NCBI GenBank assembly: GCA_009691045.1
Contig: SHWC01000014.1
Span: 1-38,446, forward strand
Source of the DNA: Alphaproteobacteria bacterium
GTDB lineage: Bacteria > Pseudomonadota > Alphaproteobacteria > UBA828
Length of the DNA: 38,446 nucleotides
Direction: 5' to 3'
Position numbers and translations under genes: made by a program. The notes beneath the pieces are model-generated. The model was not told the DNA's origin, did no database searches, and saw nothing but the letters and a program-made list of their open reading frames with translations. Positions 20,036 to 22,421 of this stretch are shown one piece after another. Each line of letters opens with the position of its first letter. Position 1 is the first letter of the stretch.

Positions 20036-21058
20036 CTAATCCTCCCGCCCTAACCGGTCCATCAGCTCACGCCATTCGCGCGCCGAAAGGCCGCTGTCCT
20101 TTTGCGTGATTGGTTCGCCCGCGATGAGCCGTTTGATCACTGAAAGATCGAGCGCGGAAAGCCGCGTGCCCCCCATCACATAATCCTCGAACGCCTCGAA
20201 GGTGAGCGGCACCCACCGCTTCACGATATCGGCGATCACCGCGGCATAGACGCGAATTTCATATTGCGCATGAGCATCGGCGCGCAGGCTCAAAAAGTGC
20301 AGCAAATTGTGCAGATCGGTCTTCCAATACCACTCGGTATAAAAATTGGTCGGCAGCACCATGCGCGCGAGCTCGCGCGCGAGGCCCTTGGCCTCAGGCT
20401 CGATCGGCTCGCCCGCGTGTTCGTTCAAGAGCTTTTCGTAATTCGTATAGGCGCGACGACTTTCCGCGCGAATCAAGCGAACCGCCTCGGCCGCCTCTTC
20501 GGGTGGCAAGCGTTCGGCCCGCCCCTGCTTGTTCGAGCGCGATTGCGCCGCCAAATGGGGCGCCTCGCGCTCCCGCCATTCATCGCCCAATAAATCGTTC
20601 TGGCCGGACTCCTCTCGCAATTTGGCGAGCCGCGTGTCGATGCTTTGCTCATCGGGCACATAAAATTCGCGGCTTAAGATCGAATAGCGCCCGGAATATT
20701 CGTTCACATTCGCGGTGCGGTGGCGGATCCATTGGCGTGCGACGAAGATCGGCAATTTGACGTGCAGCTTTATTTCGCACATCTCGAAGGGCGTGGTGTG
20801 CCGATGGCGCATCAAATAGCGGATCAGGCCCCGATCGCCTGACACATGGCTGGTGCCCTTGCCATAGGAGACGCGCGCCGCCTGCACCACGGCGCCGTCA
20901 TCGCCCATATAGTCGATCAAGCGCACGAAGCCGCGATCCAGCACGGGCTGAACAGTATAGAGAATATCCTCGAGCGCCGGCACCGTGGCCCGGCGGGTCG
21001 GGCTCTGGGCCTCGCGCAGCGCGTCGGTCTCGGCCTGTTCGTCGCGCTCTTCCGCCAT
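20036..21058 (-). CDS. thyX: Flavin-dependent thymidylate synthase ThyX
   Basis: A 340-residue FAD enzyme that methylates dUMP to dTMP with methylene-tetrahydrofolate and NADPH, an alternative to ThyA. The signature RHRX7S is present as R112-H113-R114 to S122 ([15 protein letters not shown]). [20 protein letters not shown] (about 74-93) holds the FAD/dUMP-binding segment, and [20 protein letters not shown] is also typical. The N terminus (1-30) is polar and family-variable, so a shorter start is possible. It is divergent from the tmRNA gene and convergent with mrp. Whether thyA also exists in this genome is not visible. Confidence 0.97.
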
Positions 21059-21114
21059 GCTCCCCCCCGAATCGCGAGGCGGACTCTACCCCTCAGGCCC
21101 CCGCTTCGAAACCC

Positions 21115-21143
21115 TTTCAACCGGGCCGGCGCGTCCCTATATT
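21115..21143 (+). promoter_or_regulatory. Putative promoter of the tmRNA gene
   Basis: TTTCAA (21115-21120), 17 bases, then TATATT (21138-21143), which matches five of six -10 consensus bases. Transcription would start near 21150, exactly where the structured 5' hairpin of the acceptor RNA begins. The -35 is only moderate. Confidence 0.5.
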
Positions 21144-21149
21144 GGAGGG

Positions 21150-21430
21150 GCCGGCGGGCAACCGCCGGCTATGGCGATAAACGCTTCACGGAATAGGCGT
21201 AACGGACCCGGGGGCAGTGCCCGGCGCCTCCACCATCCCTTCGGGGCGGCTTCAGGGCCGATTATGGGGGCGACACAGGCTCGACGTGCGCAATAAAGGT
21301 GTAGTTTTTGCCCGGCATGGTTCCGCCGTTATCGGGCCGTTCTAAAAGTGCCAACGATAATGAGATGGCGCTCGCTGCCTAGTCTCTAGGTAAGCGCGGT
21401 CCGGGGGGCACCGGGCAACAGAAGCCCCCC
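21150..21430 (+). ncRNA. ssrA: Circularly permuted two-piece tmRNA
   Basis: This is the alphaproteobacterial permuted tmRNA, which rescues stalled ribosomes and tags the unfinished protein. The acceptor RNA comes first (about 21150-21235). It begins with a perfect 8-bp hairpin, carries the non-standard T-arm CCGGG-GGCAGTG-CCCGG, and ends CGCCTCC-A-CCA. After a spacer, the coding RNA begins GGGGGCG at 21266, pairing with the acceptor strand with one G-U. The resume codon is GCC at 21350, and the frame GCC...TAG (21350-21382) encodes ANDNEMALAA; with the charged alanine the tag is AANDNEMALAA. A 7-bp GC hairpin (GGGGGGC/GCCCCCC) lies near the 3' end, whose exact position is uncertain. sspB follows directly. 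Confidence 0.92.
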
Positions 21431-21465
21431 ACTCTATATAGAGAGCGTGCCCGACAGAGGGGCGC

Positions 21466-22008
21466 ATGGGGTGGCGGGGCGTGAGCAAGGATTTGATCGG
21501 TTATGACGGCTTGGTTGACGCGGCGCTGCGCGGCGTCGTACGCCAGGCCCTTCGAGATGTTGCCGAGCGCGGTCTGTTGGGCGCGCATCACCTTTATATC
21601 TCATTCCACACCGGCGATCCGGGCGTCGATATTCCCGACTTCCTGCGCGAGCGCTATCCGGACGAGATGACCATCGTGCTTCAACATCAATATTGGGGGC
21701 TCGACGTACGCGACGATGCGTTTTCGATCGGCCTCTCGTTCAACAAAGCGAAGTGCATGTTGACGATCCCCTATAAGGCGATCACCCGCTTCGCCGACCC
21801 CGGCGTGAAGTTTGGCCTGCAATTCACCGGGCCTGAAAGTGGCGTTGGCGCCGTGCAAGGCGGGCTCAATTTGCCCGAGGCCTTGCCGCCGGCCTCGCGC
21901 TCAAACACGGCAGCCCCAACCCCACCGGCCGCGCCCGCCCCAGCAAGTGCGTCTTCCGAAACGCCGACCGAGAAAGTGATTCGGCTCGATAGTTTCCGCA
22001 AGAAATGA
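21466..22008 (+). CDS. sspB: SspB, adaptor delivering ssrA-tagged proteins to ClpXP
   Basis: A 180-residue stringent-starvation-protein-B family adaptor (alpha type). The N-terminal dimerising substrate-binding domain (about 5-125) includes LYISFHTGDPGVDIPDFLRE and MTIVLQHQYWGLDVRDDAFS, which form the groove that holds the ssrA tag. A long Ala/Pro-rich flexible linker (about 130-165) ends in the short C-terminal module EKVIRLDSFRKK, which binds the ClpX zinc-binding domain. The gene begins about 35 bases after the tmRNA that encodes the tag. The ATG follows AGAGGGG; a GTG five codons in is an alternative start. Its stop overlaps the next start (ATGA). Confidence 0.95.
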   Translation: MGWRGVSKDLIGYDGLVDAALRGVVRQALRDVAERGLLGAHHLYISFHTGDPGVDIPDFLRERYPDEMTIVLQHQYWGLDVRDDAFSIGLSFNKAKCMLTIPYKAITRFADPGVKFGLQFTGPESGVGAVQGGLNLPEALPPASRSNTAAPTPPAAPAPASASSETPTEKVIRLDSFRKK

Positions 22009-22421
22009 AAACGAAGACACCGCGCAAGCGCCGCCCGGTCTCCCCGGCCCATCGCAAGGTGATGCCGCCGCCGATCGTGATCAAAATGGTCAGCCGGCTG
22101 GCGCCGCTCGGCGCGGTGATGGCGCGGCCGATGTTTGGCGGCCACGGCCTGTTTCTCGATGCGCTGATGTTCGGCCTCGTTTGGTCCGACACGGTCTATT
22201 TCAAGGTCGATGACGAGACCCAGGGCGATTATGAAAACGCCGGCATGAAGCCGTTCAAGCCCTATGCGGACCGCGAAACCTCGTTCTCCTATTTCGAAGT
22301 GCCGCCGGCGGTGCTTGAGAAGGCGGAGATTCTGGGCAAATACGCCATCAAGGCCCACGCCGCCGCGCGGCGCGCTCAAGCAAAAAAGAAACCAGCCCGC
22401 CGAAGCCCACCCGGCCGCTAA
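22005..22421 (+). CDS. TfoX/Sxy N-terminal-domain protein
   Basis: A 138-residue protein consisting of one TfoX_N domain (about 28-120; APLGAVMARPMFGGHGLFLD and TVYFKVDDETQGDY are the signature parts) between basic N- and C-terminal tails (MKTKTPRKRRP and KKKPARRSPPGR). The full TfoX/Sxy of gammaproteobacteria activates competence with CRP, but it has an extra C-terminal domain missing here. The function of single-domain versions in alphaproteobacteria is unknown, and I do not infer competence. It overlaps sspB by 4 bases and the next gene by 1 (TAATG), so it is translationally coupled to both. Confidence 0.88.
   Translation: MKTKTPRKRRPVSPAHRKVMPPPIVIKMVSRLAPLGAVMARPMFGGHGLFLDALMFGLVWSDTVYFKVDDETQGDYENAGMKPFKPYADRETSFSYFEVPPAVLEKAEILGKYAIKAHAAARRAQAKKKPARRSPPGR

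Follow-up and report, generated by a model that had tools for sequence, protein, structure and literature searches.

The ssrA gene of the window, the 38,446-nucleotide stretch of DNA analysed here, stands directly in front of sspB, and this locus is one ordinary instance of the ancient ssrA-sspB pair found across the alphaproteobacterial class. The case being ordinary for its class, its value comes chiefly from losses and duplications among relatives, where the docking motif of the tag follows the presence of the protein that reads it. In the explanation that we hold to be very probable, the pair is ancestral and was passed on vertically, read-through from ssrA into sspB is likely, and selection on the docking contact would keep tag motif and reader together whether or not their genes are adjacent. 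Under this scheme, ssrA would encode a tmRNA in two pieces, which frees stalled ribosomes and adds ANDNEMALAA to unfinished proteins; SspB would dock the tag by its ANDN end and pass the protein to ClpXP, which would hold the ALAA end. Transcription of sspB would most likely come at least partly from ssrA read-through, with processing of the tmRNA 3′ end releasing the sspB message. The features of the locus are as follows.

20036..21058, − strand: thyX, divergent from ssrA and upstream of it, belonging to the conserved neighbourhood
21111..21433, + strand: ssrA, permuted two-piece tmRNA gene (Rfam extent; 21143-21473 by ARAGORN)
21143..21235, + strand: acceptor piece, encoded first (5′ boundary that of ARAGORN; sequence reading)
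21236..21265, + strand: intervening segment, predicted to be removed by processing as in known alphaproteobacterial tmRNA (review PMC3985003)
21266..21433, + strand: coding piece, starting GGGGGCGACACAGG and pairing with the acceptor piece (sequence, Rfam)
21350..21382, + strand: tag frame ANDNEMALAA and stop (ARAGORN; codons GCC AAC GAT AAT GAG ATG GCG CTC GCT GCC TAG)
21403..21430, + strand: last hairpin of the coding piece, GGGGGG...CCCCCC (sequence)
21434..21480, + strand: spacer of 47 nt, no + strand terminator-like or promoter-like match
21481..22008, + strand: sspB, alphaproteobacterial SspB (preferred start GTG; ATG 21466 is an alternative)
22005..22421, + strand: TfoX N-terminal domain gene, its ATG overlapping the sspB stop by 4 nt

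Both gene calls are backed by strong and independent matches. ARAGORN, run on the window, reported a permuted tmRNA with the tag ANDNEMALAA, and an Rfam search matched RF01849 (alpha_tmRNA) at 235.1 bits against a gathering score of 50 (E = 3.8e-67), covering the model in full (1-355), with RF04321 (tmRNA_permuted) as the second Rfam model matching the RNA. The ORF downstream carries the SspB domain PF04386 at 130.6 bits against a curated cut-off of 27 (Pfam, E = 6.7e-38). Two-piece ssrA followed by sspB on the same strand, as described in the initial annotation of this DNA, is confirmed by these matches. Since the same calls recur in hundreds of relatives, we see practically no chance that the ORF is something other than SspB or the RNA something other than tmRNA, and we rejected both misidentifications. 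Each gene is single-copy in the genome, a MAG that is 67% complete.

The permuted order of the RNA and the acceptor stem between its pieces can be read directly. The acceptor piece ends in an encoded CCA (21233-21235), the 3′ side of its acceptor stem is CGCCTCC (21225-21231), and the stretch CGCCTCC-A-CCA (21225-21235) pairs with GGGGGCG (21266-21272) at the start of the coding piece; the transcript would be cleaved into two pieces that act in trans-translation. Two-piece alphaproteobacterial tmRNA has been described in Caulobacter (Keiler et al. 2000, as cited in PMC3985003), and the window RNA is like that form (RF01849) in encoding the acceptor piece first, in its encoded CCA and in the ANDN start of its tag. 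At 10 codons the tag is short, the usual range being 9-15 for most sampled tags.

We prefer GTG 21481 (MSKDLIGYD) as the sspB start because it is kept in a same-genus relative in which ATG 21466 has no counterpart. A gap of about 35 bases, as first estimated, would hold for a start at ATG 21466, which lies 32 nt from the end of the RNA model, but the preferred GTG widens it to 47 nt. The solved structures nearest to the window SspB (E about 1e-31) are 2nys (AGR_C_3712p) and 2qas/2qaz, the latter carrying the record labels ‘Hypothetical protein’ and ‘SspB Protein’; we take 2qas/2qaz to be Caulobacter SspB. Similarity to the Caulobacter and Agrobacterium proteins extends over the whole domain and includes a conserved LDxFRKK tail, the differences being those of ordinary divergence only. 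The C-terminus, VIRLDSFRKK, fits the class consensus VVSLDAFRKK and presumably tethers ClpX, and by analogy the protein would bind its cognate tag and speed degradation by ClpXP. Given the 4-nt overlap of its ATG with the sspB stop, the TfoX-domain gene is probably part of the sspB transcript. Among the loci searched, TfoX-type genes lie beside sspB in the window's own family only (L063/L241, L235, L247).

A scan of genome contigs with a single protein had returned only three relatives, and the linkage was therefore surveyed by genome search, in which 142 alphaproteobacterial genomes, about one per family, were searched with PF04386 and RF01849. A pair was called linked when the tmRNA lay directly 5′ of sspB on the same strand and at most 1.5 kb from the SspB domain. 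By this definition 92 of the 124 genomes having both genes are linked, 85 of them within 300 nt, and in the window's own family sspB is immediately downstream of the tmRNA in all 19 genomes with a detected tmRNA. In at least two genomes (G045, G080) the genes sit at contig ends, oriented as in a pair split by the assembly, and these were counted as linked in later tests. The order is therefore the class norm, not an unusual arrangement, and the distance survey proposed in the initial annotation found it present in close relatives, where its absence was to have counted against it. Outside the class, none of the 83 genomes of the phylum's other classes with both genes has them linked, the nearest pair being 59 kb apart (Fisher P about 2e-31 for 92/124 versus 0/83, a value that ignores shared ancestry). 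Parsimony on the SspB tree places the linked state at the ancestor and needs about 19 changes, against a mean of 22 after shuffling; the separations are therefore scattered, not clustered.

In E. coli, ssrA and sspB are unlinked. The window genes are adjacent, whereas they lie apart in E. coli as in all 83 other-class genomes, and the linkage corrects a view based on E. coli: in one whole class, the genes that write and read the tag were side by side ancestrally. A survey of the genes next to smpB found ssrA to be the commonest (PMC4131195), and that pair resembles the present one in setting the tmRNA gene beside the gene of a protein partner; the partner there is the ribosome-loading SmpB, while here it is SspB, the downstream reader of the tag. 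The literature we searched, with Lessner et al. 2007 outside it, holds no report of ssrA-sspB linkage; whether the linkage itself is new is uncertain, and we make no such claim.

Vertical inheritance of the gene order is favoured by its setting, since the pair lies within an older conserved block in which a divergent thyX or thyA is followed by ssrA, sspB and fumC, with thyX or thyA upstream in many relatives. For the same reason, adjacency alone becomes a weaker argument for a special bond between the two genes. The slot upstream of ssrA holds thyX in 40 loci and thyA in 21, some genomes being counted twice (window 20036-21058; L207-L223, L235-L252, L048, L053, L162), which suggests that these unrelated thymidylate synthases have been swapped in place.

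The tags themselves were read in 118 SspB-bearing genomes and compared with 16 tags from seven families in which neither PF04386 nor a class-specific profile finds SspB. A frame scan recovered 22 tags missed by ARAGORN; the tag of G063, mis-called by ARAGORN, reads ANDNFAGEYAVAA by eye from the RNA, and those of G005 and G108 are uncertain. The SspB-less count leaves out G151, G202, G254 and G188, single incomplete genomes whose sisters have SspB, and the incomplete G002. A docking motif of the form [ACS]NxN is present in 116 of the 118 tags with SspB as against 3 of the 16 without, and the ANDN start in 106/118 as against 1/16 (P about 1e-11 by genome) or, counted by family, in one of the seven SspB-less families (P = 2.5e-5), shared ancestry being not fully removed from either P. 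The tags of the SspB-less families are as follows.

f50: AKSDYAEYALAA, AKRDYAEYALAA, AKSDYAEYSLAA, ANDDYAELPLAA
f98: ANESYAIAA (twice), ANESYALAA (twice)
f118: ANNKYALAA
f24: ANDKLAIAA (twice)
f31: ANDNELALAA, ANNNELALAA, AKNNQLALAA
f134: ANQNNAFVVACNDNAPIAIAA
f154: GNNNVNYESYAAAA

Lineages without the reader thus appear usually to have lost the SspB-docking part of the tag as well. In E. coli, SspB reads AANDENY and ClpX reads ALAA of the tag (PMC8512704), and Caulobacter SspB is a tmRNA-tag adaptor (Lessner et al. 2007, as cited in PMC3985003 and PMC8138137). Loss of the motif without SspB is what would be expected if the first half of the tag were maintained for SspB docking, as in E. coli, and the same split of the tag between SspB and ClpX makes ANDN the predicted docking motif of the window tag and ALAA its predicted ClpX-binding end. 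Two of the families retain the old surroundings of the gene (f50, L207-L210; f24, L218): fumC follows ssrA directly, at about 37-81 nt in f50 and about 310 nt in f24, thyA or thyX still lies upstream, and no sspB remnant is visible between ssrA and fumC. The reader is therefore gone from its ancestral slot in both. The SspB-less families are mostly small-genomed, and part of the tag erosion could reflect general genome decay.

Adjacency makes no such difference to the tag. ANDN starts are equally frequent in linked (84/94) and separated (22/24) pairs (P = 1), which led us to reject linkage as a condition for the match between tag and reader. Nor does any well-conserved SspB column differ in the 12 lineages with a tag start other than ANDN, so compensation in the SspB groove was likewise rejected; in most of these lineages the motif is shifted inward or duplicated within a longer tag. 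Because separated pairs keep ANDN equally and no conserved SspB column tracks the tag, adjacency is unneeded for matching; judged from these comparisons, what matches the tag to its reader is selection on the contact through which they dock. The coevolution of tag and reader proposed in the initial annotation is thus borne out in that the tag motif tracks the presence of SspB, but not in that any conserved column follows changes of the tag. Its wider functional idea, that linkage allows tag and groove to change together, appears half supported: the matching looks real, and linkage seems unneeded for it.

These results bear on the possibility that the linkage is functional, having been selected either for a balance of tag and reader brought about by shared transcription or for the matching that co-inheritance would provide. 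We regard this as unlikely, even though roughly three quarters of families retain the pair, its spacer is short (median about 79 nt among linked pairs, taking the most upstream plausible ATG) and the window spacer is free of a terminator. The linkage has been lost many times, as the parsimony changes indicate, without loss of ANDN, and insertions between ssrA and sspB are tolerated, for example in G009, G022 and G004. Conserved SspB columns stay constant whatever the tag, and the tag varies so little in its docking half that there is little to match between the two.

A passive leftover, in which an old gene order persists with separate promoters and no shared regulation, is possible, though we doubt it. 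The whole block from thyX or thyA through ssrA and sspB to fumC is conserved, even in genes that have nothing to do with tagging, and 20 of the 92 linked genomes have a run of at least four T no more than 16 nt from the tmRNA end, compared with 6 in the next 16 nt. This excess right after the tmRNA makes it likely that in some lineages, chiefly at lower G+C, transcription partly ends after its hairpin; in the window no U-run follows the last tmRNA hairpin. Against separate expression, many spacers are too short to hold both a terminator and a promoter (37/85 at most 60 nt), and the 47-nt window spacer, for which the initial annotation had named a strong terminator and an independent promoter, with no correlation of tag and SspB variation, as refuting its proposal, has no + strand terminator-like and no sigma-70-like promoter match in a scan limited to the sigma-70 consensus. 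A terminator-like match at 21446-21424 was set aside, being on the minus strand and dependent on G-U pairs. In the window, ssrA and sspB have the marks of an operon, namely a common strand, a short spacer and no + strand terminator, which makes expression by read-through plausible, and read-through from ssrA would be the simplest source of the window's sspB message. We accordingly retain the reading of an ancestral pair held together by descent, with its docking contact under selection.

Among tags of at least 18 residues, 7 of 14 have the [ACS]NxN motif at least twice, although in A+T-rich genomes the reading frame of some long tags is uncertain. Shuffling the tag middles gives an expectation of 1.1, and none of 10,000 shuffles reached 7. 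A pattern search at the DNA level detected ANDN...NDN doubles in tmRNA genes from four families (G136, G237 and G319; G304; G110; G055). ANDNVAFVAANDNTVVEVAVAA is an example of a double-motif tag, and tags with the motif duplicated or moved inward include ANDNVAFVAANDN..., ANDNAQFVAANDN... and ANSN...ANFN. Doubled motifs are listed for Anaplasma and Ehrlichia tags too. Taking losses and duplications together, the balance tips modestly towards a docking half that exists for SspB, with ANDN decaying on deletion of sspB and long tags duplicating or moving the motif, perhaps as two docking sites. For E. coli SspB, doubling the tag artificially did not clearly improve the KD (PMC8512704). Lineages in which the reader was deleted or the motif duplicated are natural experiments on the division of labour within the tag, and the SspB-less and double-motif tags are ready-made variants for binding and degradation assays. 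Long tags with two or three ANxN copies occur at L258-L260 (G136, G237, G319), L262 (G304), L263 (G110), L265 (G055), L182 (G085) and L080 (G020).

Two further genomes, G083 (L227) and G275 (L228), have standard non-permuted tmRNA with the tags ADDNFEYAMAA and AEDNFEYALAA and are without an SspB match; their families, though placed in the class, may branch outside the two-piece lineage. Many of the non-alphaproteobacterial genomes (f181 and others) have weak PF04386 matches only (E 1e-12 to 1e-4), from which the first 25-30 profile positions are missing, and these may represent a divergent SspB-like group.
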